Counted from the stretch's first letter, positions 1,681 through 51,380 are shown. The stretch: 64,000 nucleotides of DNA from Oscillospiraceae bacterium (GCA_015064555.1 SVRZ01000001.1:1-64000), one strand, 5' to 3'. Translations and numbers: made by a program. Notes: a model not told the origin generated them from the letters alone.

Positions 1681-1737
1681 CGGCATCCGTTGCGGCGAGT
1701 ATCACACTCACCGCAACGGATGCCGTATTGTTTTTTG
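1681..1737. terminator. Bidirectional rho-independent terminator between convergent ldh and the minus-strand operon
   Basis: CGGCATCCGTTGCGG...CCGCAACGGATGCCG hairpin with T-rich tracts on both strands. Confidence 0.85.
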
Positions 1738-1918: not shown

Positions 1919-2944
1919 TCAGGGCTCCGAGGGCTCAGACTGCTCGATCTTCTCCCACGCAGCATAAAGCTCGAGGTCGGAAAGAACGGGAGTGAGGTCG
2001 GTGAAGGCACTCATGGTCGCTGTATTTACCGCAGACTTTGTGTACCAGCCGACGAATTTATATCCGTCACGGGTGGCGGTAGGGATATCCGCACCGCACG
2101 CGGAAAAGTAATTACCGTTTGGAACGGTGAACACCGCCTGGCTTACGCTGAGGGCGGCGGAGTTATCTCCGGGGGCATTCTTGTAGAAGGTGACTGTATG
2201 AGTCATTGAGCCTGGAGTAAGGTCTACGACGGTCTCCCATGCTCCGAATGATTTTTTGTAGATTATCAGGTTGGTGGTGTCGAAACAGAAATCTCCGTCA
2301 TTTCCCTCGGATGCCGCAGGCTTTTCGACCGCGGTGAACCATGTGGGCGGATTCGCAAAAACGAATTCCTCACTCTCGGTGCCGTCCGTGTATATAAGCT
2401 TGATGTAATAGTAGCCGTTTGCATTGTAGCCGGAATCGACCGTTTCAACGCCTCTTCCATCCGCACCGTCGACTCCGTCCTCACCGGGCTTTCCCTCGGG
2501 GATGAGGAAGCGGTGCACGCTCTCGTTATCCATCACGAACACTATATACTTATCGCCGGTCTCGGGATCCTCCTCCTCGCTGACTCTTGCAACGGCAGAT
2601 CCGTCGGGAATGGAAAAGGATATAGGCTCCTCCCCCGGATCGGTGAAGGTTATAACTATGTCGGTCTGCTTCTTTTCGTCATCGTGGCTGTAGGTGACAT
2701 CGTCTATTCCGTTACCGCGCTCACCTGCGTCGCCCTGCTCTCCCTTCGGGATGACGAATACGGTGGGATCTATCATATCGTCACTGTAGCTTATGACGAT
2801 CAAGGTGCTTCCGTCCTCCTGGGGCTTTGCCGTTACCGAGCTTATAACAAGCTCCTCCTCGGCAAAGAAGCTGCCGCATCCGCTCAGCATAAGCACCGAT
2901 AAGAGCATTGCCGCAAGGCATACTGCCGATATTATTTTTTTCAT
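1919..2944 (-). CDS. Secreted lipoprotein with collagen-like Gly segments and a C-terminal InlB/Listeria-Bacteroides-type repeat
   Basis: Lipobox LSGCG; GEQGDAGERGNG, GKPGEDGVDGADGRG; GYKFVGWYTKS...LELYAAWEK. Confidence 0.75.
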   Translation of the reverse strand: MKKIISAVCLAAMLLSVLMLSGCGSFFAEEELVISSVTAKPQEDGSTLIVISYSDDMIDPTVFVIPKGEQGDAGERGNGIDDVTYSHDDEKKQTDIVITFTDPGEEPISFSIPDGSAVARVSEEEDPETGDKYIVFVMDNESVHRFLIPEGKPGEDGVDGADGRGVETVDSGYNANGYYYIKLIYTDGTESEEFVFANPPTWFTAVEKPAASEGNDGDFCFDTTNLIIYKKSFGAWETVVDLTPGSMTHTVTFYKNAPGDNSAALSVSQAVFTVPNGNYFSACGADIPTATRDGYKFVGWYTKSAVNTATMSAFTDLTPVLSDLELYAAWEKIEQSEPSEP

Positions 2945-5400
2945 TTTTCGTACTCCTTTGCATTTGCTATGAGATCCTGCACGTTCGGGGATTCTCCGAA
3001 GAGATATCCGTTCTTCACAAGATTGAATCTGAACGGCTCAAAGCCGGTCACGGCAATAACCGTCTTAAGCACGGGACCCTTGATATCCGATATGATATCG
3101 TCCTTCTCGGGTTCCGGCATATTGAGATATGAGTCGAGCAAACCGACACTGAGCGTGCCTCCGATATTGCTCTCTTCATCATCGAGATCAAATTTCACTA
3201 CCGAAAGGTTCGCGCCGCCGCCATAATACGCAACCGTCGCGTTGATGTAGGAATTGCCGCTCTCGGGATCGCGATATACCGTGCCCTGCGAGCCTGCGCG
3301 TGACATAAGCATCGAACGAAGCGGGAATATCGTATCGACCGTTATATCAATGCCACCGGTGGTGCCGATGACCTGATTTGCTATCATTGAGAAGTTTTCC
3401 TCTATAAGACCGCCGAGATCGAATCCCTCGGAGGACTTGTAATCGTAAAAGCGGGTGCTTCCCTTCACCTCAACGGTGACGGGGTATGCAATACCCGAGA
3501 CGCCCTTGGCAACATACGGAACGAGCGCCTTGCCCTGGCTGTCCTTCGCCATCAGCATACCGCCGAGTGTCTCTCCGAACATCGACGCCGAGCCCTCCTC
3601 GAGGAACGGACTGTTGAAAAGACTCTCCATACATATCGAAGAAATGCCGCTACGATAGAAATAAGTGTCCTCTACGGTCGCGGAGCCGTCATAGGCGAGT
3701 GTTTTACCGCCCGTGGAATTAAGCGCGTCCTGCATAGCTTCAAGCGCGCGACGCATGCTTGCCCTTTCGGCATCGTTCTTGCAATATTCGAGAAGGAACC
3801 GATTGAGAAGCGCATCCGCATCACCGTCGGGCTTTATGAACTCGCCGATCAGCATATCCTTCTGCGTGCCGTCCAGCATCTCGAAGGTGGCAACCGCATC
3901 CTTATCCATCGGCAGGTATTTATTCGAGCCGGTGAGGAACAGGAAATTACGCGCATTTGACAAAAGGCAATTCTTTACAGTGAGATCCTTCGAGGAGAAG
4001 CTCCTTATCACGTTCTTTCCGTTTGATATCCTCGAATTGATGACGGTGATACCGTCGCCGTAAACCTCAAGCACGGTGCCTACGGTATCCATATTCGCCA
4101 TTCTGTCGCCGAAATCGCAGTTCTTGATATTTACGTCATTGACCGTGATGCCGTCACCGTCAACGTACATACCGATATTATCCTGACCGTAAAGAGAGAT
4201 CAGGGGCAGATTGTTCGGATCTCCGAGGCAGTAGAGCTTGAGCGGACCGCGGAAAAGATTATCTGCGGTGAGCTCGGGAATACGGACTCCGTTCTGAGTC
4301 GAATAGGAGTATGGGTAGGTGAGATTATGGAGATTGATCGTATAGCCGTTTCCGTAGAAGTCCTTCTGCACATGCAGACCGACATACAGGCTATCGCTCA
4401 CAGGCGAATATCCGCGGTTATTCTTCGCAAACTCGTTCCACTGCTCTATGAACTCGGTGTTATAGGTCGTTCTGAAGCTGTAGACGTCGTCCGGGAAGGA
4501 GAACCTGCCCGTCTTTGTGTCATAGTAGCCGAAGCACTCGACGTTATTTGCCTTGCGGAGAAGCTTTCCGTCCGTCACCATCGGCTTTCCGTCCGAGCCC
4601 AGAACATAGGAATTCTCAAGCGACTCAAAATGGCGCCTGAGGACTACTATCTCGCCCTCTGCGCTTCTGTTGGTGCAGTTGAGAAGATCGTCATAGTTAT
4701 AGACGTTCACCCCGTCCTCAACTATATTGAAGCTATATGTCACGGGGGCGGCAACGCCGTCCTTAGCCCTGACCGTTATATATGCATCTCCGGGAGCAAG
4801 TATATACGCCTTGCCCGTGGATATGTCATAGCTCACGTTATCGCTCGTTTCGGCATATAGCGAGCCGTATATTCCGGCAGGCAGAGCGCGAAGCGTCATA
4901 TCTATGACAGCCGCCTCACCCCTTTTATGATCGTACTGACCGTAATAGACGGTAGAGTCTATATTACTCTGAGAGCTGCCTTCGGTGGGATACATAAGTA
5001 TCGCGGCATCCTTGTATATAACTGCGGTGAGTGAGCGGTAAACGTTACCCTTGGCGTTGCTGCAGGTGACGGTGACCTCTCCGGCTCTCAGTGCGCGCAG
5101 GTAGTATGAGCCCGATTTTTCAACGACCTCGGCATACGGCTCATCGGTGCCGTCCTTGTTTTTGACGCTCCATACGAGCGCACTGCCTCCGGAGACCTCA
5201 TAATGCCGCTGGTTAACGCCTACAGCCCTCAGCGAATACAGGTTCTCCGATATCTCAAACGCCTCCATATCGTTGTAATCCCAATCGATAAAGGATATAT
5301 CAACGTCCACCATATTGTAGGTGGTGTTGATGGTAACGATGCAGAATACCGATATCAGAAACGGAAAGAGAAGGAGGATGATCAGATTTTTCTTTTTCAT
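2941..5400 (-). CDS. Large membrane-anchored extracytoplasmic protein, probable parallel beta-helix
   Basis: MKKKNLIILLLFPFLISVFCIV N-terminal TM; repeated short beta-rich motifs (VNDVNIKNCDFGD, ITVINSRISN, LTVKNCLLSNARN). Start assigned at 5400, overlapping the stop of the upstream gene (TGATG). Confidence 0.65.
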   Translation of the reverse strand: MKKKNLIILLLFPFLISVFCIVTINTTYNMVDVDISFIDWDYNDMEAFEISENLYSLRAVGVNQRHYEVSGGSALVWSVKNKDGTDEPYAEVVEKSGSYYLRALRAGEVTVTCSNAKGNVYRSLTAVIYKDAAILMYPTEGSSQSNIDSTVYYGQYDHKRGEAAVIDMTLRALPAGIYGSLYAETSDNVSYDISTGKAYILAPGDAYITVRAKDGVAAPVTYSFNIVEDGVNVYNYDDLLNCTNRSAEGEIVVLRRHFESLENSYVLGSDGKPMVTDGKLLRKANNVECFGYYDTKTGRFSFPDDVYSFRTTYNTEFIEQWNEFAKNNRGYSPVSDSLYVGLHVQKDFYGNGYTINLHNLTYPYSYSTQNGVRIPELTADNLFRGPLKLYCLGDPNNLPLISLYGQDNIGMYVDGDGITVNDVNIKNCDFGDRMANMDTVGTVLEVYGDGITVINSRISNGKNVIRSFSSKDLTVKNCLLSNARNFLFLTGSNKYLPMDKDAVATFEMLDGTQKDMLIGEFIKPDGDADALLNRFLLEYCKNDAERASMRRALEAMQDALNSTGGKTLAYDGSATVEDTYFYRSGISSICMESLFNSPFLEEGSASMFGETLGGMLMAKDSQGKALVPYVAKGVSGIAYPVTVEVKGSTRFYDYKSSEGFDLGGLIEENFSMIANQVIGTTGGIDITVDTIFPLRSMLMSRAGSQGTVYRDPESGNSYINATVAYYGGGANLSVVKFDLDDEESNIGGTLSVGLLDSYLNMPEPEKDDIISDIKGPVLKTVIAVTGFEPFRFNLVKNGYLFGESPNVQDLIANAKEYEK

Positions 5401-6992
5401 CAGTATTGAGTCTCCAGATCCATAAACCATGCATCCATATTGCGCCACACGTTAATAAATACGGGGATACCTATGCCGATGAATATCAGAGCGCCAAACA
5501 GGCATATAAGCCAGATGGGCACACCGACAAAGCTCAGGACGAGCCCCAGTGCTACGAACATGATGGGCAAAAGGTATGCGAACAGCGACGACATAAAGGT
5601 CGAGCGCGGCTTTGCGTGCCTTATGTGGAGCTCCTCACGCATTGCTATCAGGTCGAATACGAACAGGAGCACTGTCGAGAGAAGGAAGGCAAACAGGCAT
5701 ACCAGAGGGGATGCGGCTCTTCCGATAAGTATTACCAGAATAGATATTACAAGCGCCGTCTCCGACATAATGAACGGGATAAGCACCTTTATTATCAGCT
5801 GCCGCTTCGGGCTTATGGGAATTGTTTTAAGGTTTTTTATGGTAGACGCCTCCATCGAGATATAACGGTTGGCACCCGAGCTTATAATGAGTGTTACCAT
5901 CATAACGAGGAAAACGCTTATCATCGACGTGAAATCCGGGAACAGGCTGACGTAATACATAAACGTTCCCGAGGTGAAGATGGTGCTCATGGCGACCACT
6001 ATGAGATAAAGCAGGAAGGGCTCGACCGCAAGAAGGCCCGAGAACGAGAATATGAAATCGGGATTCTTGGTTATAAGAGCAAGCTCCTTCAGGGCAAGGG
6101 CTATATTGACCTTGCGACCTCTGAATTTAAATATCCTCTCGCGCTGCTTCCTCTGAGGTGCAACGTGACGGATATAGCCGTACATAAATACGGTAACTGC
6201 GGTGCCCAGAATGAAAATTCCGAGCGATATGCAAACATAAGGCGTCATTTTCAAGCGTGAGCCCTTTATGAAGAAATCAACCAGGAAGTTGATGGGCACA
6301 AGCCTTGACGTTATTTTCGAGATCTTGGTTATCGATTCGTCGGTAAATATGAGGTTCAGATCGTTATTCGCGACCATATCCACAAATGCCGACAGAACTA
6401 TCGAATAGATGGTAGCTCCGGCAAATAGCAGGACTACCGCCACGGCAAACTCCAGCGCAACGTGCTTTTTCAGGTACTCTATAAGAAGCCATACGGGATA
6501 AACGAGAAGAAGTGCAACACCCACCTCAAAGAGGAAGGACGCGACAGGGTAAAAGATAGCCATATAGAAGAACCAGGCAGTCTTTCTGAATATTATTCCG
6601 TATGCGGTGAATATCGGAAAGGTGAAAAGAAAAGCAGTCGCATAGTGGTTCAGGAAAAGGAATATCAGCTTTGACGATATCATCATACCGTCGCTGACCG
6701 GATGATTGGCAAGCTGATCGATATCCTTCTTGTTGAAGAAGAGCTTCATCGCCTTCAAAACACCGTTTGCCATCATCAGCACCGAGATTACCGCCAGAAA
6801 CAGGCAGGTGAAGGTCTCGGGAGCGCCGCTGTAGCTTTTGATCTTCGTGAGGATAGCAGAGAACAGGAATACCTCTATAGCGATTATCAGCGCGGTCATT
6901 ATCACGCTGAAAATACCGTCCAGAAAACGGCGCGCCTTGCTTTTTCCCGTGGAAAACAAAAGCTTGAAATCCTTAATAAGCAGGGTAAGCAT
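5400..6992 (-). CDS. ABC transporter permease (ABC-2-like exporter)
   Basis: MLTLLIKDFKLLF start and many hydrophobic segments; directly follows an ABC ATPase with TGATG stop/start overlap. Confidence 0.8.
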   Translation of the reverse strand: MLTLLIKDFKLLFSTGKSKARRFLDGIFSVIMTALIIAIEVFLFSAILTKIKSYSGAPETFTCLFLAVISVLMMANGVLKAMKLFFNKKDIDQLANHPVSDGMMISSKLIFLFLNHYATAFLFTFPIFTAYGIIFRKTAWFFYMAIFYPVASFLFEVGVALLLVYPVWLLIEYLKKHVALEFAVAVVLLFAGATIYSIVLSAFVDMVANNDLNLIFTDESITKISKITSRLVPINFLVDFFIKGSRLKMTPYVCISLGIFILGTAVTVFMYGYIRHVAPQRKQRERIFKFRGRKVNIALALKELALITKNPDFIFSFSGLLAVEPFLLYLIVVAMSTIFTSGTFMYYVSLFPDFTSMISVFLVMMVTLIISSGANRYISMEASTIKNLKTIPISPKRQLIIKVLIPFIMSETALVISILVILIGRAASPLVCLFAFLLSTVLLFVFDLIAMREELHIRHAKPRSTFMSSLFAYLLPIMFVALGLVLSFVGVPIWLICLFGALIFIGIGIPVFINVWRNMDAWFMDLETQY

Positions 6993-8089
6993 CAGGTACT
7001 GCTCCTATAGATGTCCATAAAGATTTTTGAAAGCTGTATACGTCTGTTGGGATCGCGGTTAAGGTCGTACAGCGCGGCAACCTTACCGTCGTTTATTATT
7101 GCAACTCTGTCGCAAAGCCTTGCAACAAGGTCTATATTGTGCGAGGTGACGAAAACCGTCTTTCCGTGATTTGCATACTCACGCATCATAAGCTTGAGCT
7201 CCTCTACCGCCATGATATCAAGTCCGACGGTGGGCTCGTCGAGTATCCAGACCTTTGGATTATGGAGCAGGCTTGCGACAAGGCATAGCTTCTGCTTCAT
7301 ACCGTGTGAATAGTCGCTCGCGGGGTTGGCAAGCTCGCGCTCGTCGAGCTTAAGACGCGAGCAGAGATATTTGTAATTGCTGACGAAATCGCCCTCGGAC
7401 AGCTGATATATATTGGCTATGAACTCAAGATAGTCGTAGCCCGACATTACCTCATAGCAGGAGGGCTCACTGGCTACGTAGCCAAACGAGCGCTTTGCAT
7501 CGAGGCTCTGCTCCTTGACGTCGAAGCCGGCAAGACTTATACTTCCGGCATCGTATCTCTTGGAGCCTATAACACAGTCTATCGTGGTCGATTTACCTAT
7601 ACCGTTTTTACCTATGAAGCCGAAAAGCTCGCCCTCGTAAACGTCGAGATCGAGTCCCTTCAGGACCTTCTTCTCTCCGTATGCCTTATGGAGTCCTCTT
7701 ATCGATATCATAGGGGTGCGGCCGTCGGGATTTTTGACAACAGGAGCGGAGGGCTTTTCCTCTTCGGCAGTGTCGGCGGTCTGCGGCTTCCCGGCTTCGG
7801 CGCGCTCTGCTTTAGCCTTTTCGGCTTCGGCAGCCTTTGCCTCGGCGGCGAGCCTTTTCTTCTCTGCCTTCTCTGCCCTTTTCTTTTCGGTCTCTGCAGC
7901 CTTTGCCTCGGCGGCAAGCCTTTTCTTCTCTGCCTTTTCGGCATTTGCTGCTGCCTTAACCTTATCGGCCTCTGCCTTTTTTTCCTTAGCCTCGGCCTTT
8001 TTCTTTTCGGCTTCCGCCTTCTTTGATTCGGTATCGGCAGCCGCCGCGCTCTTCTGCGCGGCGCCGCCGTTTTCATTGATCATTAACAC
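6992..8089 (-). CDS. ABC transporter ATP-binding protein with a Lys/Ala/Glu-rich N-terminal extension
   Basis: Walker A GKNGIGKS, signature YSHGMKQKL, Walker B VWILDEPTVGLD; about 125 aa AEKKRLAAEAKAAE-type extension. Confidence 0.9.
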   Translation of the reverse strand: MLMINENGGAAQKSAAAADTESKKAEAEKKKAEAKEKKAEADKVKAAANAEKAEKKRLAAEAKAAETEKKRAEKAEKKRLAAEAKAAEAEKAKAERAEAGKPQTADTAEEEKPSAPVVKNPDGRTPMISIRGLHKAYGEKKVLKGLDLDVYEGELFGFIGKNGIGKSTTIDCVIGSKRYDAGSISLAGFDVKEQSLDAKRSFGYVASEPSCYEVMSGYDYLEFIANIYQLSEGDFVSNYKYLCSRLKLDERELANPASDYSHGMKQKLCLVASLLHNPKVWILDEPTVGLDIMAVEELKLMMREYANHGKTVFVTSHNIDLVARLCDRVAIINDGKVAALYDLNRDPNRRIQLSKIFMDIYRSST

Positions 8090-8098
8090 CTTAAAATC

Positions 8099-9346
8099 CT
8101 ACTTTCTGATTTTTCGGAACCAAACGTCATCGCCCTTGGAGTCAAGGAATACGTACTGAGAGCCACATTCGTTACAGGTGTAGATGCCCTTGCTCTCCGA
8201 TATCGCGCGAGCGCGGCAGACAGGGCAATATATGCTGTAGATCCTGTGCTCGAGCTTTGCAAGACGAAGCTTGCTCTCAAGCCAGCTTCTGACAAGATTC
8301 TTCTCCGAGGCGCATACGCGGACAGAGGCGGCATCGAGCGCGGTCAGTCCCCACAGCGACATAGACTCCTCCGAGTCATAGCTGCCGAGGATCTGCTCCC
8401 GGTTCTCCTCAACGTCATCAATACTGAATCTGAGAAGATGCTTCGCAGCAGATGCTCCCTTCGGCATAACCGTCATCGAAATAGCACCGTTTGCCACTAT
8501 TTCAAGCTCAATCGAGAAGTGCGCGCCCGAAAGCCTCAGCACGTCGTCACTCATATCGGTGCCGGCAGAGAGCTCGAAGCCCCTTTTCTTCACCGCCTTG
8601 AGTATAAGAAGCACGTAGTAGAGCATCAGGTCCGCCTTTATCGCCTCAACGTCCTCATAGCAGACGAAGCGGCGGTAGAAGCGGTAGCAATGGCAGTACA
8701 ATCTGTCCTTGGTGAGTATATTCGTCGGCTTTATTCTGCCCGAAATGGGCTTCTCGCGGCTGATGGTCTTATAGAAATACGTCCCCTTTATGAAGCGTAT
8801 CTTTCTTTTCAGCCTGTCAACCGTTATGATAAGATCGCCAACCTCGTTCTTCGGCAGACTTGCGCTTCGCGAATCGTAAGTCGGTAGCTTTGATACGTAG
8901 AAAGTGCTGTATTTGGTAAGCTCGCGGTCGACCATATCGATAAGCAGGCATACGAATTTATTTTCGTATATGCACATCTCGTCGATATGCTGATTATAAT
9001 GAACCTCCTCGGGTATCATCTCCATGCCGTGACGGTGCCAGAGCTTACTGTCGATAAGCACCTGGCGAAACTCGTCATTTCCGAGCGAGCCGACCTTTTC
9101 AACTCTGAGAACGACCTCCTCGGTCTTGTTGGAGATGTGAGGATGGTAGATTATAGATATTATAACGTTCAGCAGAGAGGTGACTGCGTGCAGAAACTCA
9201 ACGTCATGCTCCAACGAGGCATTCTGAAGCGAGATAAGCTCCATTTTTTCGATATCCGAGAAAAGAGCGGATACCGAGCGGCGTTTATTCAGCTTCAGCG
9301 ACTTGTGTATAAGGTCGTTGAGCTCTGCGGTTTCTATAAATCTCAT
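8099..9346 (-). CDS. Unknown protein with C-terminal zinc ribbon; possible DUF2357/McrC-like partner of the adjacent McrB-like ATPase
   Basis: CPVC...CNEC zinc ribbon at C-terminus; starts 1 nt after the stop of the McrB-like gene; family assignment rests mostly on context. Confidence 0.45.
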   Translation of the reverse strand: MRFIETAELNDLIHKSLKLNKRRSVSALFSDIEKMELISLQNASLEHDVEFLHAVTSLLNVIISIIYHPHISNKTEEVVLRVEKVGSLGNDEFRQVLIDSKLWHRHGMEMIPEEVHYNQHIDEMCIYENKFVCLLIDMVDRELTKYSTFYVSKLPTYDSRSASLPKNEVGDLIITVDRLKRKIRFIKGTYFYKTISREKPISGRIKPTNILTKDRLYCHCYRFYRRFVCYEDVEAIKADLMLYYVLLILKAVKKRGFELSAGTDMSDDVLRLSGAHFSIELEIVANGAISMTVMPKGASAAKHLLRFSIDDVEENREQILGSYDSEESMSLWGLTALDAASVRVCASEKNLVRSWLESKLRLAKLEHRIYSIYCPVCRARAISESKGIYTCNECGSQYVFLDSKGDDVWFRKIRK

Positions 9347-9347
9347 A

Positions 9348-11171
9348 TTACAAATTCTTTATGATGAACGAAGCGGTCCTTACAGATCTCTTCATTACAC
9401 CGTGACCGTAAGTCTTTTCAAGAAGCGATACAAGTCCCTCGAGAGAATCCTTGATGTGATCCTCGAATCTGCCCTCGAGCTTGGATATAAGCTTCTTGGA
9501 TATCATAAGGTCGATAGCGGTTTCCTTCTTGCCGCCCGCCGCAACGAATACGGGGACGATATTCTCTATCTGATTGAGTATACGGTTTCCGATAGCAACG
9601 TCAAACGCTTCGTACGCATACGCGAGCACCTTGTTAAGGCGCGTTCTGTCGGTATCGGTGAGCAGAAGCTCGGGATCCGAAAGAGCCTTGGTGTAAAGCG
9701 AACGAAGAGTCGAGTGGCTGAGGTTTATGGTAGGCGTTTGTGCCTCTACCTCAAACGGCTTGTTGTTCTCGGTGAAGTCCATGGTTATCGCACGGTCGTA
9801 AACCTTATCTGTAATAGTGAAGGTGGAATCGTCCTTGTTCGCAGTTCCTACGAAGTAGGAATTCTCGGGGATGCGCACGTATCCCTCCTCAAGCTTGATG
9901 GGAGGAACGAAGCCGAAGGGGAGCTGCATTACCTTGAGCTTCCACTCGGCAACAGGGTATTCGAGCACCGAGAGAAGGTCTGCAAAGTAGTACTCTACTC
10001 TCGATATGTTCATCTCGTCGAGAACGAAGATGTTGATCATATCGGGATTGTAGTTCGCCCTGTAAAGGCTTGAAAGAAATTCGGTTTCCGAATAGGTCTT
10101 TGAGAATTCATTGAAGAATCCGACAAGGTTGGTTTTATCCCTCCAGGTAGCCTGAACAGGCATAAAAAGTACACTACCGTTTACATATTTAGCGAAATAA
10201 CGGGGTAAAGAAGACTTACCTGTTCCGCTTAGTCCCTCGAGTATCTGGAAGTGAGAAGCCGCAAATCCCGATATAAAGAAGCGAATAACGTCTATATCGA
10301 AGTAGAGCTTTTCCTCCTTCGCAAGGTAATTTCTGAAGCCCTCGCAAAGAGCATCAAGGGTGGGTGTATCCGTCTTTTCGAGCTTTTCCTTGACGAATCC
10401 CTCATATTCAACGTCGATACGGGAGAGCTCGGGGAATACCTTCTCGCGGTCTGCGAGATTTTCGGTGTCCTTGACGACCATGTCACCCGAGCCGCCTTCT
10501 CCGCCGCCGTTTCCACCGTTTCCGCCCTTGCCGCCGGCGCCGCCTGTCTGATTTTCACCCTCGCCATCGCTCTTGACGTCGAACGAGCTCTTGACGTCAA
10601 GATCCGCCTCTATCTCATCGGCAAGAACAGGAGCCTTGTCCGAATCAAAGAAGCGATAGGGCTTGTCGACAAAGATGAAGTTGACAACGAGCATTACCAC
10701 CGAGCCTATCGCTATGAACAGCAGCACGTAAAGAAGCGTTGCAATAACGAGCGATTGACCGAGGAAGCTGAAGGTCAGACCGATATTTTCCGCGCTCCAG
10801 GGCTTCTGAAGAAGGAATCCGAAGCCTATCGAAAGAACAGCACAGGCAAAGAAGGTGCCCACGTAAACGCCGATCATCTTGGGAGCGAAGGTCTTTATTC
10901 CGTTTACGATAGCATATCTGCGCTCATAGCAGATAGCGCATATCATAAGGAGTATGTAGAAGTCAACGAGCACAAGGAAAAGGAATGCAGAGGTTCCCGC
11001 ATCTATCGGCTTGAAGCCGAATGCCCTTCCCAAGCCCGCTATGGGGTTCTTAGAGCTGATAACGCCGGATTTTGCATCGAGGCAGGCTCCGACAAACAGC
11101 AATATCATTGAGTAAAATACTGCGAGAGAGATCGTTATAAGATTCTTTCTCGTTATAAGCTTTTGAAACAT
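9348..11171 (-). CDS. McrB-like AAA+ NTPase with N-terminal transmembrane region
   Basis: Walker A LEGLSGTGKSSL, Walker B NIFVLDEMN, YYFADLLSVLE, VGTANKDDST (MNxxDR-like motif); about 4 predicted TM segments and a GGAGGKGGNGGNGGGEGGSG linker. Confidence 0.8.
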   Translation of the reverse strand: MFQKLITRKNLITISLAVFYSMILLFVGACLDAKSGVISSKNPIAGLGRAFGFKPIDAGTSAFLFLVLVDFYILLMICAICYERRYAIVNGIKTFAPKMIGVYVGTFFACAVLSIGFGFLLQKPWSAENIGLTFSFLGQSLVIATLLYVLLFIAIGSVVMLVVNFIFVDKPYRFFDSDKAPVLADEIEADLDVKSSFDVKSDGEGENQTGGAGGKGGNGGNGGGEGGSGDMVVKDTENLADREKVFPELSRIDVEYEGFVKEKLEKTDTPTLDALCEGFRNYLAKEEKLYFDIDVIRFFISGFAASHFQILEGLSGTGKSSLPRYFAKYVNGSVLFMPVQATWRDKTNLVGFFNEFSKTYSETEFLSSLYRANYNPDMINIFVLDEMNISRVEYYFADLLSVLEYPVAEWKLKVMQLPFGFVPPIKLEEGYVRIPENSYFVGTANKDDSTFTITDKVYDRAITMDFTENNKPFEVEAQTPTINLSHSTLRSLYTKALSDPELLLTDTDRTRLNKVLAYAYEAFDVAIGNRILNQIENIVPVFVAAGGKKETAIDLMISKKLISKLEGRFEDHIKDSLEGLVSLLEKTYGHGVMKRSVRTASFIIKNL

Positions 11172-11251
11172 TTTTTTCTCCGATCCGGTCTTACCCTGTG
11201 GGTAAGATACTGATAGAAATAAGATTGTTTAACAGTGTGGCGCAATACGCC

Positions 11252-12298: not shown

Positions 12299-12318
12299 TA
12301 CTTAGCGAGTCGCTTAAA

Positions 12319-13074
12319 TTACGGAGATGCGGTTATGGTTATTGTATACTCGGGAGCGGTATATTCGGTAGGGTTAGCGATATACTCGTCATAGCTTACA
12401 CCGCAAACGGTAGCTCTGAGAGTGTCAAGCTCACGCTTAACATTCTCCGAGGAAACTGCCTTTCCCGCAGCATCTTCATCGTAATATTCGCTGGGGTTTA
12501 ATCCGTTAAACTTCTCGCCCCACTCAAACTCAAGTCTGCAGGTGAGAACGCCTACCTTAACGGTGGAACCGCCACCGGTATCTCTATCCTCTACCTTGTA
12601 GCTCCAGCCGTCATCAAGAGAATGATCGGAGCTGTTCATACCGTTAACTATCAAAACCTGACTCTTTACCCATGCAGGAATCTTGATGTATCCTGCGGTC
12701 TCTGCTGCAAGAACGCCATCGGGTATTATCGAATCGATGGTGATGGTTGCAACAACGTCGAGATTGGTGAGCTCAACGAAGAACTCAACTGCAAGGTTCT
12801 CGGAATTCTCACCGTCCCAACGAACTCTTCCTGTGCTATCGTCTGCAAGGGGCTCGAAGTGTATTTCCTTCTTGTTATCAACATAGGTAACCTCGCTGAT
12901 GCCGATCTTAGCCTCGTTGGTTATACCGACGTTAACGTTTCCGCCGGCGTTTTTGCTAACCGATGTGGAAAGCACCCAGGTAGCAAAACCGGTTGCGGTA
13001 AGTGCGAGTGCTGTGAAAACAGCAACTCCGAAGACGATTATCTTCTTCTTAAATGAACTTCTTGTTAATCCCAT
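12319..13074 (-). CDS. Secreted protein with SipW-dependent (TasA/camelysin-like) signal sequence
   Basis: KKKIIVFGVAVFTALALTATGFATWVLS; RBS AAAGGAG; adjacent to SipW-like peptidase. Confidence 0.75.
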   Translation of the reverse strand: MGLTRSSFKKKIIVFGVAVFTALALTATGFATWVLSTSVSKNAGGNVNVGITNEAKIGISEVTYVDNKKEIHFEPLADDSTGRVRWDGENSENLAVEFFVELTNLDVVATITIDSIIPDGVLAAETAGYIKIPAWVKSQVLIVNGMNSSDHSLDDGWSYKVEDRDTGGGSTVKVGVLTCRLEFEWGEKFNGLNPSEYYDEDAAGKAVSSENVKRELDTLRATVCGVSYDEYIANPTEYTAPEYTITITASP

Positions 13075-13101
13075 TTTAATTCTCCTTTATCCGGGTTAAG
13101 A

Positions 13102-13833
13102 TCAGGCATTACCCTCGGTGCTGAAGGTAAGCTTGAAGGTAACGTCCGAAATAGCGGCGATTCCGCTGAGTGCAGCATCTGCCTCTGTAGCCTTCTCGGT
13201 GGAGTAAGCGAAGCTGTTGAAGTAATCGTAGGGGTTAGAGGGAGTGGTCTCTTCGGTCTTTGTGAAGTCGCCGCCCCATGAAAATTCTACGGTTACAACA
13301 AAATCCTGAGAAGCCTTGTTCTCATCAAATGCCTTCTTGGTGGTTACCTCCATAGCATCAGCTGCAGCCGATGCACCGTCGATCTTAACGGTGGTGTGAC
13401 CTATGTAGCCGTTGGTGGTAGCTGCCGCATATGCGTTGCCTGCATTGTCAACTATTTCAAAATCAACTACGAAATTCGAAAGGATCTCTGCAAGATCAAC
13501 GCCTGCTTCGCTGCCTGCCTTCGACTCAACCTTAACGTTAAAGGTTGCGGTAAGAACCTCGTTCTGAACGTCAGTTCCTGCATAAAGCCAAGGGTTGTTA
13601 ACCGACGAGGAAGCCGGCTTACCGAACTTGATTGCGGTGTTTTCAGAGGATACAAGAGTAATGGTAACGTCGTTATCCTCTACGGTGTAGACCTCAAACG
13701 AGCCGGTTGTTTCAACAGGCTCTGCGGGCTTGATGATAAGCCAGGATGCGAAACCTACTGCTGTGAGTGCAAGGCATGCTACGATGCTTGCGATTTTGAT
13801 TCCAAGTGATGTCTTAATTTTTCTGCGTGTCAT
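13102..13833 (-). CDS. Secreted protein with SipW-dependent (TasA-like) signal sequence
   Basis: MTRRKIKTSLGIKIASIVACLALTAVGFASWLII; start taken at the internal ATG at 13833 downstream of an AGAGG RBS. Confidence 0.75.
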   Translation of the reverse strand: MTRRKIKTSLGIKIASIVACLALTAVGFASWLIIKPAEPVETTGSFEVYTVEDNDVTITLVSSENTAIKFGKPASSSVNNPWLYAGTDVQNEVLTATFNVKVESKAGSEAGVDLAEILSNFVVDFEIVDNAGNAYAAATTNGYIGHTTVKIDGASAAADAMEVTTKKAFDENKASQDFVVTVEFSWGGDFTKTEETTPSNPYDYFNSFAYSTEKATEADAALSGIAAISDVTFKLTFSTEGNA

Positions 13834-13986
13834 AGTGTTTTCCTCTTTTCTTTCGCCACGGGGCTTTGCGATACCCCGGGGCATATTTTTTGTTTTTTGT
13901 TTTTGTTTTTTTGCTTTTGGACGTTTACTGAATTTTGCCTTGGGTATGTGCGATTTATTTAAAAGTATTTGCGCGTGGATTTGAAG

Positions 13987-14039
13987 TGCGCGATTGCGGT
14001 GCGCACATGCGCGGGCGCGGCGCGATTATTTGCGCCGCG
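13987..14039. repeat. Two tandem GC-rich hairpins in an intercistronic gap
   Basis: GTGCGC...GCGCAC (13987-14006) and CGCGGCGC-gattattt-GCGCCGCG (14016-14039). Confidence 0.7.
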
Positions 14040-14071
14040 TGCGCATATTTGAAGAAGTATCTGATATCTGA

Positions 14072-17000
14072 TCAGACGTAACCGTGCTTGACGAGGTAAT
14101 GCTCAATGTAAGCAACGATCTTTTCGAAGGTTATGTGTCCCTTTCCGACGGCTATCTTGAAGTACTGAGCCTGGAACATATTGTATACCTCCTCGGGGAT
14201 ATACTCCGCGAAGTCCTCATATGTGTAGAGTCCGTACTTTTCTATATCAGCCTTCATCTGCTCGGCATCGTAGTTAAGATCGCTGTCATATTCAAACATA
14301 TTGAATATACCGTCTATACCGCCGGGTATCGAAAGCATTCCGTCGATGAGATAGTTAAGATGATATACGGTTACCAAGCTGTAGCAGCCTGTGTACTCAA
14401 CCGTTACGTAAGCCTCCTCGAGAGTTACCGCGGTGAATCCGTCACCGTCCGCCATAGCGAACTCGTGACCTACGAAGTCCTCACAGTTACCCTCGGTGAT
14501 ATATACGTATCTGCCGAGCGTCATATCAAAGAGCGCGTGCTCGTAGATAAGTCTTGTAACGATTCCGTTCGAGAATCTGAGATTGATGATGCTGTATTCC
14601 ATCCAGCCGTCATCCTCAATGAAGATGATGCCCGCCTCAACGAATCTGCCGCTCTCATGGTCGTAAACCAGAAGGACATCATCCATTGTAAGCTCCTCAA
14701 CCGGCTTGACGCTTCCGTCTGCCAGAGTGATAAGAGTACCTGCGGCGATACAGCTTCCGTCACTACCGACAAGGGTTACCGATCTAGCTGTGGTAATTTG
14801 CTCGTATGCAGACAATCCGCTCTGCGATTTTGAATTACTGGGCTCGATCTTGACATATTGACCACTCATTACGTAGAAGTACTTCGTGCTGACTGCACTA
14901 TCGGTTACAGACGTATTGGATATTTCGTTGGTTCCATCAAGACTGAGTCTTACCGTATAGGTAGGAATCTTGCCTGAAGAAGCGTCACCATCTACACCCT
15001 TCTCTGTGATTACCTCAATAACTATTTTTTCCTTCCAATCGGGATAGATGGTCATCGTTCCGTCGCCCGAGTCGGTTACGGTCAGACTGTCGGTTATCTG
15101 GCCGGTCTTCGCTGAATCCAGATAGCATACAGTGCTGTACTCCGGGAACGTTAGGTCGTAATTGTACTCATTCACCCATTCGTCTATAACACTGAGTGCA
15201 ATATTCGTAGAGTGTATGTACCAGCGATGTGAACTCGTGCCATATGCCGAAGGAATATTAAGTACAACCTTGACCTTGCTTGCCATATTTGCAACCAGCA
15301 CTACAGAAGTATTATCGGCAAAGAGTGCGTAAAGGTCATCATCGGTAACTATAGTTGCGCTACCGAACTTCCAGCCGCCAAAGTACTTGTTGGTTGCGGT
15401 ATTGTCATCCTGTGCGGATGCCATCGAGAAGTAGGAGCTGTCAGAACCGGGTAACGGGTTATCAATGAAGTCTGTCTTTGCAGTCTTGATCTGTTCGGGA
15501 TTCAGATAAATCACAGCACCTGTGAACTGAACCCTGGTGCCGACAATGTCGGTTCCGGAATCTGCAATTGCCTGAAGCTGATATTTATCAGCCCAAACAC
15601 CGGAGATATCAAGGACGTTATCCTGCCATAATTCGGGAGGAACTACGCCGTTTTCAATCTTGACTCCGCCAACCTCCCAATGCGAGAAGTATCTGGTAAC
15701 ATTGATATCTTCATCCTTAGCAATTGCTGTTTTCGTATACTCTATGATTATTGCTTCGATCTGACTCTGAATTACATATTCGGTCTTGCTGAAGCTTATC
15801 GCATTTGTGCTTGCACCCGAGTTACCCGAAATGTTGAGAACGTACTTGTTCTCCCATACCGCGGTAACGGTGAGTGCACCGTCTGTGAACATACTCGGCG
15901 TGATAACGATTATCTCGTCACCCGAGGAATCAGTCCAACGGCTGAAGTACTTGTTGGTATCTCTTGCAAGATCATACTGCTTCGCCTGAGCTTCGTAGGG
16001 CTTGATATAATTTTCAAACGCCTCCGCGATCTGAGATTCCACAACGTAAACAGTTCCTGTAAGAGTTATAGGATTGACGCCGGCACCCGAGCTTCCGGTA
16101 ACCGTGATAATATTCTTATCGCCGAAGGTTGCTTCGACTGTAAGCTTCTTATCAACGAAATCGGAGATCGAGATGCTGTCCTTACTCCATCCGGTGAAGA
16201 ATCTGGATGTGGCAATGTTCGTATCCTGTGCCTGTGCCATCGTTCTATAGGACTCAGCGTTTTCAAGGTAGGGTATATTGAGGTATTCGCTTATCGCCAT
16301 GCTTATCTGACTTTCATGCAGGTAGATAGTGGGAACCGTTACCTGTACTCTGGTTCCGATAGCAGCGGCGCCCGAATCGATCAGGACGGTCAGTGCGTAC
16401 TTATCGGCATATTCTGCCGTAAGTGTAAGTGCACCGTCGTCTCCGAAGTACTCATTTTTAAGTCCTGCGGTTAGATCATACTCGGTATTACCGTTCTCGG
16501 TATCTATGAAGCGGAGGAAGTACTTGCTGATCTCTGTGTTGAGATCGGATGCACTTGCCTGTGCCACATATTCGTTCATTATAGTCGCATACTGAAGATG
16601 TGAAACGTAGATGTTGGTTATGTTAATGTCTATTCCAAGTCCGTTGCTTGCCACTATATTGAGAACCTTCTTTGCTGACGAGCCTGCGGTAAGCTCAAAT
16701 CTCGCTCCGTCCTCTGCATCCGCAGGGATAACGTCAGCAAGAGTCGTTACCTCTGCTCCGTTATAGAGCCAATGGTCGTAGCAAAGCTGCTTTGTTATAT
16801 CATATGCATCCACGCTGATAGGCAGAGGAGCTTCCTCTCTCTGAGTCGCCGCGTAGATCTGCTCTGTCGTGCTTCCGTCCGGATACGTGTAAACCACGTA
16901 ATACCTGAGCTTGGTCCATTCTCCACGGATGGTAACGGTTACGTTATCCTCATTCGGTACGGAGAAGTAGGAGAGTAACTCAATTCCGGAAAGGGTAGTC

Positions 17001-19861
17001 TTTGCAATTCTTGAATTGCCCGAATACCAGCCCGCGAATGTGTAATCATCAATCAGAGCTTCAATAGCAAGGCTTACGTTTTCATCAAGTGCCGTTACGC
17101 TTGTGGGAAGCCCCGCAGTCTTATCGCTTGCCGGAGTATATCCGTTATGCGTGTAGGTGATGTTGTAGGTTATAACATCCCACTTAGCATAGAGTGTTGT
17201 GTCTGCGAATATTCTGGCATTTGCCGCGGGATTCGTTAATTCCGCATCGAGATACCAGCCGCCAAACTTGTAATACTGCCTGGTGGGTACGGTCAGATAG
17301 GAGCTGTCAAGCACCAGACCGTCCGAATAGATTCCGCCGATATCCTTCGCGGAGAGGGATGTTCCGCCATTTGAGTTATATGTTATCCTTATGTTGTCTG
17401 CCGCGCATCTCCAATAATACGTGCTGCCGGATCTATAAGCCGTATAGGCTGTGCCGGTATTGAAGGGCGCAAGCGTTACACCGTCATAGATAACGCCGGT
17501 TGCCCTCATAAGAGTTGCGGCATTCAGTGCCTCTGCATTTTCAACTGCAGCACCGCTGATGGTCGTAGTGTCGTTTGAGAATACCGCCGCAAGATAGTTT
17601 ACTTCCTTGCTGACTATAAGGACGGTTATAGTCATCGTTGCGCTCTCGGTACCGACGATCTCGGGGGAGTCGACGGTATTGCTTCCGCTCACATTCAGGC
17701 GCGCGCTGCTTGATATAGGGCTGACTACACCGCCGAGGTTTACAATCCTCAGCTCGCCTTCTATTCCGAGGTATCCGTCGCTCTCATTTAAAACAACTGT
17801 ATACTTACCCTTCGTGGGAGTGTCCTTTTGCGCCGCAGCCGGCTTGTATTTCGTGCCTACTATCAGGTTGTAATCCTCGTGGTTTGTAGTACCCGTGGGA
17901 TCAAGAATTATCTTTGTTGATTCATAGTCGTAAACCGCTATCGAGGAAGCATTCATGATAACGTTCTCACCTATGGTGAGTCTTCCTCCGGGCAGGACCT
18001 TGATTCCCTGTCCCGTAGCATCTATCGTAGCGCGATTACCGTTCTCATACTCATTGAAGGATACGTCCCAGTTATAGGAAAGCGGGAAGAGCGCTTCAAC
18101 AGTCGAAAGCTTAACGACGATTATCGCCGTAGTTATAGATGCATCCTTCTCTATCTTCAACGATATAACAAGAGGATTCATCTTGGCATCTCCCTTGATA
18201 TCAAGATCTATGCGGCTGATCAGGGGATTGCTTTCATTGTAATTGAATTTAGCCTCAGCCACAGCATTGTTCTGAAGCTGCATTATACTGGTATCCAGCC
18301 TTCCGAGCAGATCAACGGTGGTTTCATTATTCACACCGTCTGCATAGAGGTTTACGTATCCGTAAAGCTGAGCAGCGCTTTCAACGCGCATTTTAGCGGT
18401 CGCCGATTGAACGAAGAATCGGTTGAAGGGGAAGCATTCCACGTTAGCAATATAGGGATCGGTCTCTCTTCCTACACCAACGTATTTTGAAAGCTCTTCA
18501 CCCGTAGCGCCCGACATTCCAAGGAAGGTCGATCCGCCTCGATGCTCTATCATTGTGAACATACTCGTGAAGTCACCGCGCTCGAGCCATATGCGGGATC
18601 CGTTATCCGCTGCCGCCTCGTCTATAAAGCCGTAGCACCATATCTTTGAGGAATCCGTAGCATTATGAAGCTCAGCGCCCGTGGCAAGTGATATCTTTGC
18701 ATGTACACCGACGGTAACAGAGTTAAACATCTGCTGTGCGCCTCCGCCCGTAATAACACCGGAAACTATTATAGTTCCGTTGTTCGTGAGAGTAGCGCCA
18801 TCGCCTATGTGAAGTGTATTTTTGGTAGTGTTCGCCGTCATTCTGGCATTTCCGCTGGCAGTGCTTACAAGCTTTCCGTTACTGTATGAGGCATATGCCG
18901 TACTGCTTGTATCTACTGTCGGTATCTCCAGCGTTACACCGGCAGCAACCGTGCTGTCAGAGGTTATCGAATGATTGAAATGGTTTCCGGACGCGTAGGT
19001 CGTTCCACCGTAGGTGAAGGACTGCATCGGCACGACCTTCGCACCGCTCGCCGTAACAGCGCCGAGGGCTGTGGATATATCGGCATAATATTTGGTTCCG
19101 GATGAGGTGGTCGCGTAGGTCGTTCCCAGAAGAGTATACGGAATGGCAAGCTTGTTATCGTTTGCTTTGCTGTAGCCGTCCTCACCGTCGGTGTTTATGT
19201 AATAATTAACATCCGAGTATGTGTAGTAATATTGCTTGGAAACGTTTACGGTAGCAGGCTGTCCGTAATCCGAAATTCTCGATGAAATGGTGACACTCTT
19301 CGAGGTCGCATATCCACCCGGAGCGGTCAGCGACAGGCTTATCTGAGCATTCTTTCCCGCAAAAAGCACCGTATTTTCGGGAATGGTGACAGTCAGCGCC
19401 CGCTTCTCAACCGTGAATACGTGGTTCTCGCAAACGACCTGACCTGTTGCTTTCTCAATTATTTTATAATAATGCTTGCCCGCGTATATACCCGCCTGCG
19501 CAACGTTCGCGCTCGCGAGCTTTCCCTGCGTCGGGTTATCGTATCCGCTATCATCACGCAGAGTGTAGGCGTAAAGCTCTGCCTCGAAATAATCATCAAA
19601 GCTACCGCTTGTTATTCCGTAGACTATTTTACCCGCGTCCGTGAGCGCGAGAGCGACCTTTTCACCGTCATAGATCTTAGAGGTCGTGAAGGATGCACTC
19701 GTATCTACCGGAGGAAGTGTAACGCTCGGTACACTATCCGGATTCGTGGTAACCGTTTTGTTATTCCACTTGACAATCAGCCACGAGGAAGCGCCGATTA
19801 CCGATAACAGAAGTGCCGTTATAGCCACCGCCAAAAGCGATAGCGAGAGATGCTTTCTCAT
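14072..19861 (-). CDS. Giant (1929 aa) secreted protein: SipW-type signal, beta-rich body, InlB-like repeats, C-terminal Hint (Hedgehog/intein) domain
   Basis: MRKHLSLSLLAVAITALLLSVIGASSWLIV; ITYNSNGG...YKFGGWYLDAELT...LYAKWD; CIAAGTLITLADGSVKPVEELTMDDVLLVYD...CYSLVTVYHLNYLIDGMLSIPG. Confidence 0.85.
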   Translation of the reverse strand: MRKHLSLSLLAVAITALLLSVIGASSWLIVKWNNKTVTTNPDSVPSVTLPPVDTSASFTTSKIYDGEKVALALTDAGKIVYGITSGSFDDYFEAELYAYTLRDDSGYDNPTQGKLASANVAQAGIYAGKHYYKIIEKATGQVVCENHVFTVEKRALTVTIPENTVLFAGKNAQISLSLTAPGGYATSKSVTISSRISDYGQPATVNVSKQYYYTYSDVNYYINTDGEDGYSKANDNKLAIPYTLLGTTYATTSSGTKYYADISTALGAVTASGAKVVPMQSFTYGGTTYASGNHFNHSITSDSTVAAGVTLEIPTVDTSSTAYASYSNGKLVSTASGNARMTANTTKNTLHIGDGATLTNNGTIIVSGVITGGGAQQMFNSVTVGVHAKISLATGAELHNATDSSKIWCYGFIDEAAADNGSRIWLERGDFTSMFTMIEHRGGSTFLGMSGATGEELSKYVGVGRETDPYIANVECFPFNRFFVQSATAKMRVESAAQLYGYVNLYADGVNNETTVDLLGRLDTSIMQLQNNAVAEAKFNYNESNPLISRIDLDIKGDAKMNPLVISLKIEKDASITTAIIVVKLSTVEALFPLSYNWDVSFNEYENGNRATIDATGQGIKVLPGGRLTIGENVIMNASSIAVYDYESTKIILDPTGTTNHEDYNLIVGTKYKPAAAQKDTPTKGKYTVVLNESDGYLGIEGELRIVNLGGVVSPISSSARLNVSGSNTVDSPEIVGTESATMTITVLIVSKEVNYLAAVFSNDTTTISGAAVENAEALNAATLMRATGVIYDGVTLAPFNTGTAYTAYRSGSTYYWRCAADNIRITYNSNGGTSLSAKDIGGIYSDGLVLDSSYLTVPTRQYYKFGGWYLDAELTNPAANARIFADTTLYAKWDVITYNITYTHNGYTPASDKTAGLPTSVTALDENVSLAIEALIDDYTFAGWYSGNSRIAKTTLSGIELLSYFSVPNEDNVTVTIRGEWTKLRYYVVYTYPDGSTTEQIYAATQREEAPLPISVDAYDITKQLCYDHWLYNGAEVTTLADVIPADAEDGARFELTAGSSAKKVLNIVASNGLGIDINITNIYVSHLQYATIMNEYVAQASASDLNTEISKYFLRFIDTENGNTEYDLTAGLKNEYFGDDGALTLTAEYADKYALTVLIDSGAAAIGTRVQVTVPTIYLHESQISMAISEYLNIPYLENAESYRTMAQAQDTNIATSRFFTGWSKDSISISDFVDKKLTVEATFGDKNIITVTGSSGAGVNPITLTGTVYVVESQIAEAFENYIKPYEAQAKQYDLARDTNKYFSRWTDSSGDEIIVITPSMFTDGALTVTAVWENKYVLNISGNSGASTNAISFSKTEYVIQSQIEAIIIEYTKTAIAKDEDINVTRYFSHWEVGGVKIENGVVPPELWQDNVLDISGVWADKYQLQAIADSGTDIVGTRVQFTGAVIYLNPEQIKTAKTDFIDNPLPGSDSSYFSMASAQDDNTATNKYFGGWKFGSATIVTDDDLYALFADNTSVVLVANMASKVKVVLNIPSAYGTSSHRWYIHSTNIALSVIDEWVNEYNYDLTFPEYSTVCYLDSAKTGQITDSLTVTDSGDGTMTIYPDWKEKIVIEVITEKGVDGDASSGKIPTYTVRLSLDGTNEISNTSVTDSAVSTKYFYVMSGQYVKIEPSNSKSQSGLSAYEQITTARSVTLVGSDGSCIAAGTLITLADGSVKPVEELTMDDVLLVYDHESGRFVEAGIIFIEDDGWMEYSIINLRFSNGIVTRLIYEHALFDMTLGRYVYITEGNCEDFVGHEFAMADGDGFTAVTLEEAYVTVEYTGCYSLVTVYHLNYLIDGMLSIPGGIDGIFNMFEYDSDLNYDAEQMKADIEKYGLYTYEDFAEYIPEEVYNMFQAQYFKIAVGKGHITFEKIVAYIEHYLVKHGYV

Positions 19862-19905
19862 AGGCTGCTGCTCCTTTCTTAGATTTTCGACTGTTTATAT
19901 AGCTC

Positions 19906-20661
19906 TCAGTTGGTCTTTTCCACCCATGCTGTGGACACAAATTCGGTGCCCGCCTTATCTCCGCTTGCCTCCCGGAGATATCTGCCAAGACAATGCCTGA
20001 AGTTTGCCGGAATATCAGATCCCGTAAGATTCTTTGGTATCGAGAAGGTATACACCACCTTGATATCCTTCGTGCCGGTGGAGGCAAGCCCTGTAAGAGT
20101 TGTGTCTATATTAAGTATTTTGCCTTCGATGTTTGTTATCGTTTTGCTCGCCCCATCAACCGTTGCCGTTATCGCGTACGAATATTTATATGCATCGTGC
20201 GCGATGGTGTTATTCATCGAGGTATTGAACAGCTTACCGTCATTAACATCCCTGACGTTTTTCGCAAGAAGCGAAAGGTGCAGGTCAAGACTGCCGTTCC
20301 AATCATTTCCAAAGCTTGACTTGCAATTTGCAAGATTTATGCGGTAGGTAACCGATATCTTTCCCGAATCTGTCAGGTTACCGCTTGCATCAACAAAGCT
20401 CTCTGCCCTGTAATCAAATATCTCAACGTCGCCGTAGAGATAAACGAGATCGGTCGAATGAGCGACACCGTATGAATGAAGCTCACCTGTCGCGGTCGTA
20501 TTCATCCCCGAGGGAGCAACAATTATCCAGGATGAAAATCCGATGCTCACCATCGTCATGCAGAAGAGAAGCGGCATAGCAAGCATGAGCGATCTGAGTC
20601 TTTTCATTGTGCTTCTCGACTTTTTTCTTTTCTTTCCGGTTGATTTGATCTCACCGTACAT
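19906..20661 (-). CDS. Secreted protein with SipW-dependent (TasA-like) signal sequence; first gene of the operon
   Basis: MKRLRSLMLAMPLLFCMTMVSIGFSSWIIVAPSG; RBS AAAGGAGG upstream of the 20661 ATG. Confidence 0.72.
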   Translation of the reverse strand: MYGEIKSTGKKRKKSRSTMKRLRSLMLAMPLLFCMTMVSIGFSSWIIVAPSGMNTTATGELHSYGVAHSTDLVYLYGDVEIFDYRAESFVDASGNLTDSGKISVTYRINLANCKSSFGNDWNGSLDLHLSLLAKNVRDVNDGKLFNTSMNNTIAHDAYKYSYAITATVDGASKTITNIEGKILNIDTTLTGLASTGTKDIKVVYTFSIPKNLTGSDIPANFRHCLGRYLREASGDKAGTEFVSTAWVEKTN

Positions 20662-20858
20662 CTGATTGCCGCCTCCTTTCTGTTATCATCAGGTCTTGCT
20701 CTTTTGATTTTGGGCGCGACCACCCGAATAAGTATATGCGCCGGCGCCCGTATATGTGAATCGAGCAGAAATGCTCGTAACTTAATAATATAAATAATAA
20801 ATAATTATTTTATAAGTATAACGCGCATCGCGCGTGCACGCATTCTTATATTAAAAAG

Positions 20859-20887
20859 ATTTTAGCATACTTTTATATATTTTTCAA
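20859..20887 (-). promoter_or_regulatory. Predicted sigma-A promoter for the 20.7-1.9 kb operon
   Basis: Reverse complement TTGAAA-N17-TAAAAT, about 190 nt upstream of the first start codon. Confidence 0.5.
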
Positions 20888-47282: not shown

Positions 47283-47295
47283 CTGTTTGCCTCCC

Positions 47296-49044: not shown

Positions 49045-49079
49045 AAATTATCTTTTCCTCGTTTTTCAAGAGCTGGGAA

Positions 49080-50630: not shown

Positions 50631-50644
50631 GTGCTACTCCTTTA

Positions 50645-51352: not shown

Positions 51353-51380
51353 TTGTTTTTGCCTTTCTGTTTTCTAAGAT

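Follow-up and report, generated by a model that had tools for sequence, protein, structure and literature searches.

A conserved operon joining a membrane-anchored McrBC-type pair, without conserved nuclease residues, to SipW-type secretion genes in an Oscillospiraceae bacterium

McrBC machines are known for their part in defence, in which they target DNA or RNA. Here we describe a block of 11 genes from an Oscillospiraceae bacterium (GCA_015064555.1, SVRZ01000001.1:1-64000; the whole 64,000-nucleotide stretch analysed is called the window), in which genes predicted to encode an McrBC-type pair lie between those for a SipW-type signal peptidase with its candidate substrates and those for an ABC transporter. 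In the type IV restriction system of Escherichia coli, McrB is an AAA+ NTPase with Walker A and B motifs and McrC carries a DUF2357 domain, and the main text of Bell et al. (2024, eLife; PMC11090510) describes activation of the McrB ring by the McrC stalk. The same text names CoCoPALM systems in a few sentences that defer the subject to later work: these are NxD-type McrBC with a membrane/coiled-coil domain, encoded next to signal peptidases, in which the GTPase is fused to an FtsB-like domain (transmembrane (TM) segment plus coiled coil) and a coiled coil in McrC is usual, not universal.

Three further precedents are relevant. The tapA-sipW-tasA and sipW-tasA-calY fibre operons of Bacillus encode a dedicated SipW together with small secreted substrates and, as described, have no AAA+ or ABC part (PMC10151520, PMC13082335). 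PcdA of Staphylococcus aureus is an McrB relative that has become a cell-division placement factor with low turnover (PMC10602043). In the same species, an ABC transporter compensates for loss of signal peptidase (PMC5013292), which offers an analogy for a functional link between ABC systems and the processing of signal peptides. A literature search for McrB with SipW returned nothing on the present system, its sole match being unrelated, and DUF2357, present in five papers, was used more than once only by Bell et al. (preprint and journal version).

Open reading frame (ORF) calling across the window recovered 11 minus-strand ORFs at the positions reported, within 1919–20887, by a first-pass annotation made from the sequence alone, and the block is real. 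Its features, with amino acid (aa) lengths, are:

1681..1725, both directions: strong bidirectional intrinsic terminator, 20-pair stem (hairpin scan)
1919..2944, minus strand: lipoprotein, 341 aa, with LSGC lipobox, short collagen-like G-x-x stretches and a List-Bact repeat (Flg_new, E 1e-7)
2941..5400, minus strand: membrane-anchored extracellular protein, 819 aa from the ATG at 5400, probable right-handed beta-helix (PF13229 in 3 of 16 members)
5400..6992, minus strand: ABC-2-like permease, 530 aa, about 12 TM segments (PF12730 in 2 of 14 members, PF16949 in 1 of 14)
6992..8089, minus strand: ABC transporter ATPase, 365 aa (PF00005, E 2e-23)
8099..9346, minus strand: McrC-type partner, 415 aa, DUF2357, no conserved nuclease residues, C-terminal zinc ribbon at C374, C377, C391 and C394 (26-member alignment, profiles, Foldseek)
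9348..11171, minus strand: membrane McrB, 607 aa, four N-terminal TM segments, Gly-rich linker, NxD-type AAA+ domain (motifs, hydropathy, profile)
11252..12298, minus strand: SipW-type signal peptidase, 348 aa (TIGR02228, SipW model)
12319..13074, minus strand: secreted substrate 3, 251 aa, SipW-type signal GFATWVLS (signal family, AlphaFold2)
13102..13884, minus strand: secreted substrate 2, 260 aa, SipW-type signal GFASWLII (signal family)
14072..19861, minus strand: giant surface protein, 1929 aa, whose SipW-type signal is GASSWLIV, with List-Bact repeats (Flg_new, E 1e-10) and, at the C-terminus, a weak Hint motif (E 0.04)
19906..20661, minus strand: secreted substrate 1, 251 aa, SipW-type signal GFSSWII (ORF, signal common to the substrate family)
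20859..20887, minus strand: promoter-like TTGAAA-N17-TAAAAT (motif match, not above chance)

The 607-aa protein is confirmed by its sequence as an McrB of the NxD clade. Its Walker A (GLSGTGKS), Walker B (VLDEMN) and shortened NxD (NKDD) motifs are intact, NxD is present in every relative of the McrB alignment, and a profile built from 15 relatives and searched against the PDB matched only McrB (6hz4, E 1e-6), which bears out the membrane McrB-like ATPase proposed at first pass. At the N-terminus, four TM segments and the Gly-rich linker form a membrane domain in place of the DNA-reading specificity domain of the E. coli protein, which also differs in having NxxD rather than NxD. Four TM segments, called here by simple hydropathy, were found in 37 of the 38 McrB proteins of the same kind as the window's (the window kind, below).

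A single-sequence search gave no confident family match for the 415-aa protein. When 26 members were aligned, I65, Y127-E128-N129, T208-N209, Y217 and the four cysteines were invariant, and DUF2357, the N-terminal domain of McrC, was matched by 16 of the 26 (best E 3e-13). A profile from the window-kind family alone retrieved 59 further proteins at E<1e-3, all of them products of an McrC gene beside McrB. The AlphaFold2 model (mean predicted local distance difference test score, pLDDT, 85.5) opens with a helical part that includes beta strands, followed by an alpha-beta region, and its C-terminus, rich in strands, bears the cysteines; Foldseek placed McrC chains at ranks 1 (6hz4_M, E 0.01, probability 0.90), 3 and 9, with 6ut6_G also matched; these matches, of modest E-value and low template-modelling score, back the sequence evidence and do not stand alone. 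Profile searches of the PDB with a 3-member alignment and with a coiled-coil McrC alignment matched no McrC, whereas the fold search did, and setting three 415-aa sequences against coiled-coil McrC proteins by direct profile alignment reached only 24% probability, the question being settled with the 26 members. The zinc ribbon, a feature added relative to E. coli McrC, is kept in all 36 window-kind McrC proteins. Across the 26 members, no acidic or lysine residue is conserved in the C-terminal (nuclease) region before the ribbon, and an active PD-(D/E)xK nuclease is therefore unlikely. The first-pass annotation had called this protein a zinc-ribbon partner; the ribbon is present, but the protein is best described as an McrC homologue without conserved nuclease residues. 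Judged by sequence, the two proteins are an McrBC-type module, set, unlike that of E. coli, in a secretion operon.

The conservation of the gene set was assessed from a scan of 85,462 species genomes, in which McrB had at least 582 relatives; the best 80 were fetched, and the window and two relatives were added. Window-kind McrB occurs in 40 of these loci, at most 39 of them independent since L028 and L050 lie on the same contig. In six-frame profile searches, the set of substrates, SipW, McrB, McrC, ABC ATPase, permease, beta-helix protein and lipoprotein was complete in 33 of the 40; the other seven (L026, L052, L057, L072, L073, L079, L081) end at contig or fetch ends, and among the 40 there is no window-kind McrB that serves as a counterexample. 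This neighbourhood search had been suggested by the first-pass annotation, and the genes proved to be conserved together rather than scattered among relatives. SipW lies directly upstream of McrB in the window and in every window-kind locus of sufficient length, gaps between conserved genes are mostly -4 to +10 nucleotides (nt), and gene order is kept far beyond chance, holding in dozens of genomes, with coupled reading frames, down to about 32–36% McrB identity. These comparisons support a single conserved system. Two arrangements occur, that of the window and another in which the lipoprotein and a large surface gene lie between McrC and the ABC genes (L076, L077, L078, L083, L092, L097). Almost all loci come from metagenome-assembled genomes, and the hosts of window-kind loci are mostly from animal gut and labelled Clostridia, Bacilli or Acholeplasmatales. 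At L080:76-4451, another McrB-McrC pair (923 aa, many TM segments) immediately precedes a complete window-kind operon.

A tree of 97 AAA+ domains has two supported sides. On one, McrB has four TM segments and McrC a zinc ribbon; it holds the window kind and a group linked to type IV pili. On the sister side, McrB has one or two TM segments, McrC is a long coiled-coil protein without the ribbon, and SipW is found on one or both sides of the pair, often with GGDEF/EAL proteins and without the ABC, beta-helix and lipoprotein genes. Coiled coils were called by composition measures: the maximal fraction of E, K, R, Q and A in 100 aa of McrC has a median of 0.35 in the window kind versus 0.71 in the sister kind, a composition proxy and not a coiled-coil predictor. 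In a separate class sample of 390 genomes, 42 of which had a match, 14 of the 20 best loci (the window's own not among them) had SipW adjacent to the pair, and none of those 20 had a pilus or ABC arrangement. Clusters of GGDEF/EAL (cyclic di-GMP, c-di-GMP) proteins with SipW-McrB-McrC of the coiled-coil kind were seen at L035, L037, L038, L101, L102 and L103.

The pilus-linked group consists of type IV pilus clusters of gut Clostridia (pilins, PilD, PilM-like, PilC, PilB) that end in the same four-TM McrB and zinc-ribbon McrC (L084, L086, L087, L088, L090). In L086, Pfam identifies a prepilin peptidase, T2SSF and T2SSE (E 6e-129), with pilin-like proteins upstream, and in L087, a short contig, only part of PilB is visible. 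The filament machine differs from that of the window operon, and SipW is absent. The five loci form one clade and thus represent one evolutionary event, not five.

As far as the main text of Bell et al. describes it, CoCoPALM proper fits the sister kind. The window locus resembles it in its NxD McrB, membrane anchoring, McrC-type partner and signal-peptidase-family neighbour, but has four TM segments and a Gly-rich linker instead of a TM-plus-coiled-coil architecture (judged by TM count), a zinc-ribbon McrC without a coiled coil (by the composition proxy), and additional ABC ATPase, permease, beta-helix and lipoprotein genes. Two of the features described there are present (NxD, signal peptidase) and two are not, and on that description the locus is a sister variant beside CoCoPALM, not a member. 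The earlier statement that no named system matches holds in part: CoCoPALM already links NxD McrBC to signal peptidases, whereas the description given in that main text does not cover the four-TM variant with ABC and beta-helix genes.

The SipW assignment at first pass stands, with TIGR02228 at 67 bits (cut-off 51.9) and a SipW model at E 1e-20, and the peptidase and its candidate substrates belong to the conserved set. It is the sole copy above the family cut-off in the genome assembly (82% complete). SipW was uninformative as a genome-level marker, being above cut-off in 59 of the 98 closest relatives, versus 22 of the 98 with McrB relatives. The substrate signal, a hydrophobic start ending in a GF(A/S)xW-like motif, occurs in 69 of 92 substrate-family proteins versus 27 of 511 others, counts that reflect motif and position only, not cleavage; among the 27 are several large surface proteins encoded in these very operons, and large proteins with such signals recur across many related operons. 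Loci carry from none to eight substrate genes, with the fewest in loci cut at their ends. The AlphaFold2 model of substrate 3 (pLDDT 83) is beta-rich. In the giant protein, the Hint domain reported earlier is seen as the weak match listed above and a CIAAGTLI motif, but it was rejected as a core part, being found in just one operon besides that of the window. A second Hint-like motif (SCLVAGTMISMADGT) occurs in a giant surface-like protein near an operon at L060:19133-21775.

The ABC ATPase match bears out the ATPase of the ABC exporter named at first pass; the protein has a charged, Ala/Lys/Glu-rich N-terminal extension of about 104 residues, and relatives align only over residues 102/104-363. 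Family evidence likewise favours the beta-helix. Its gene starts at the ATG at 5400, relatives beginning with the same MKKKNLII, and the GTG at 5448 (835 aa) gives merely the longest ORF. Neither the beta-helix protein nor the permease had a convincing relative in the PDB. The lipobox cysteine of the lipoprotein is invariant among relatives.

The sequence shows what the genes are, that their linkage is conserved, that the NTPase motifs are intact and the nuclease residues lost, and that a zinc ribbon, membrane segments and SipW-type signals are present. These features suggest a reading to which we give about even odds (roughly 0.5): the operon would be a dedicated secretion/assembly system for SipW-processed surface proteins, with McrBC acting as an NTP-driven machine on a membrane assembly complex. 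With the cutter gone, the NTPase and its activator retained and the ring fastened to the membrane, this is the simplest reading. Several small subunits and one giant protein would be exported as precursors, their signals being cut by the operon's own SipW. The membrane-anchored McrB, probably a hexamer with its AAA+ domain presumably in the cytoplasm, and the apparently nuclease-dead McrC would form an NTP-hydrolysing machine at the inner membrane face, the DUF2357 stalk stimulating McrB as in McrBC. Instead of moving DNA, it would remodel or drive a membrane complex of ABC ATPase, permease, anchored beta-helix protein and lipoprotein, to which McrB may be physically coupled, and this complex would assemble or anchor the SipW substrates, which might form a fibre or sheath. 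A surface fibre or sheath machine in which the AAA+ protein remodels or exports SipW substrates had been proposed at first pass; surface assembly is still the best reading, and the motor role is what we infer for the ATPase.

The link of the McrBC pair to the cell surface is well supported. The related kinds also point there, through their SipW neighbours, GGDEF/EAL proteins and pilus clusters, and the attachment of the pair to two filament systems unrelated to each other argues for a surface structure, rather than DNA, as the common theme. We suggest, tentatively and at less than even odds, that membrane McrBC rings with a dead nuclease may be a motor or control module of general use for bacterial surface filaments, able to move between systems and taken up separately by SipW-substrate and type IV pilus machines, and a class of secretion/assembly NTPase so far unrecognised. 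If so, the conserved nuclease-less membrane McrBC would show defence motors put to use in assembling the envelope, and gut bacteria would have, in their SipW-type fibre systems, an NTP-driven component not described for those of Bacillus. The fixed gene set defines the parts and makes the unexplored CoCoPALM idea testable.

Several observations weigh against the assembly-machine reading. The TasA-like substrates of the first-pass annotation were not borne out, since the PDB fold search with the substrate 3 model gave no significant match, whereas the Bacillus operons encode the TasA/CalY fold. McrB also resembles the PADLOC defence candidate PDC-M26A (E 3e-34). Finally, within the order of the window's genome the operon has a patchy distribution: the set is carried by 3 of the 98 closest relatives (G000, G001, G002), and the beta-helix gene is convincing only in G000 of 394 genomes, G174 having a short, weak match. 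Such patchiness suits defence and surface genes alike, and a guard that watches surface structures, which are frequent phage receptors, from the membrane and triggers an anti-phage response would also accord with the McrBC ancestry, with the PDC-M26A match and with a possible nucleic-acid-binding role of the zinc ribbon. Nevertheless, McrC lacks conserved nuclease residues, the operon has no other obvious effector, and the pair is a fixed member of a secretion operon that has rnc on its upstream side and, downstream, a dehydrogenase gene, which makes a guard improbable.

On the sequence, McrBC may move, remodel, place or sense, and the likelihoods given to the alternatives overlap with that of the best explanation. 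A membrane McrBC that places, times or gates the surface machine as an NTP-dependent regulator, without driving it, seems unlikely, though less so than a guard; it is comparable to PcdA, which shows that McrB proteins can be co-opted as low-turnover placement factors in a non-restriction role at the cell envelope (PMC10602043), and it would suit both the attachment of the pair to two unrelated filament machines, one with its own extension ATPase, and the c-di-GMP enzymes of the sister kind. However, PcdA has EVE domains, has lost McrC and has a degraded Walker A (PMC10602043), whereas the window pair keeps all the NTP-hydrolysis motifs and the activating McrC. Slightly less doubtful is a division of the operon into two machines, the ABC, beta-helix and lipoprotein genes forming an independent exporter or envelope complex and McrBC serving only SipW and its substrates; this differs from the assembly-machine reading only in the target of McrBC. 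The sister kind, with SipW and McrBC alone, is in its favour, as is the second arrangement (L076, L077, L083, L092, L097), which parts the ABC block from McrC; yet the rearranged block stays in the same cluster, and the beta-helix family was not convincingly found outside the operon in the 394 genomes of the order. That each part is known separately might suggest a secretion operon lying by chance beside an unrelated McrBC locus, but with 33 of 40 loci complete, the remaining seven cut at their ends, and the coupled order kept at such low McrB identity, chance adjacency was rejected as wholly improbable.

The claims made earlier about the layout of the block agree with the sequence, with one reservation. 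The coupled junctions are all present (TGATG at 6992 and 5400, ATGA at 2944, a 1-nt gap at 9347), intergenic gaps are mostly small, the largest being 187 and 80 nt, and base composition across the block is unremarkable. The strong terminator is borne out by a hairpin at 1725-1681 (20 pairs, 13 of them GC), exceptional among hairpins of the region; T-runs flank both sides, and it could be used as a terminator shared with the convergent gene at 560-1615. The promoter match at 20887-20859 exists, but matches of its type number 28 against 25.7 expected, i.e., no excess, so it does not demonstrate a single promoter and was rejected as proof of a single transcript. The small size of most gaps would suit 'one promoter, one transcript', which is nevertheless unproven.

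Other arrangements were seen in passing. Arrays of two or three McrB genes surround one McrC at L098, L100, L105, L121, L123, L126, L172-L174, L176 and L177; after those of L100 and L105 comes a large membrane protein that contains a transglutaminase core, and the two smaller McrB copies of an array can be near-identical (L098, L100, L123, L126). In relatives of the window's genus, an McrB with about eight TM segments occurs at L039, L040 and L041, where no SipW was found nearby; its partner is a zinc-ribbon DUF2357 protein in L039 and McrC-type in L040. Positions 44346-52361 of the window encode what looks, by eye only, like a gliding-type (GldA/GldG-like) ABC cluster, made up of an ABC ATPase, a permease-like protein and large proteins anchored in the membrane.

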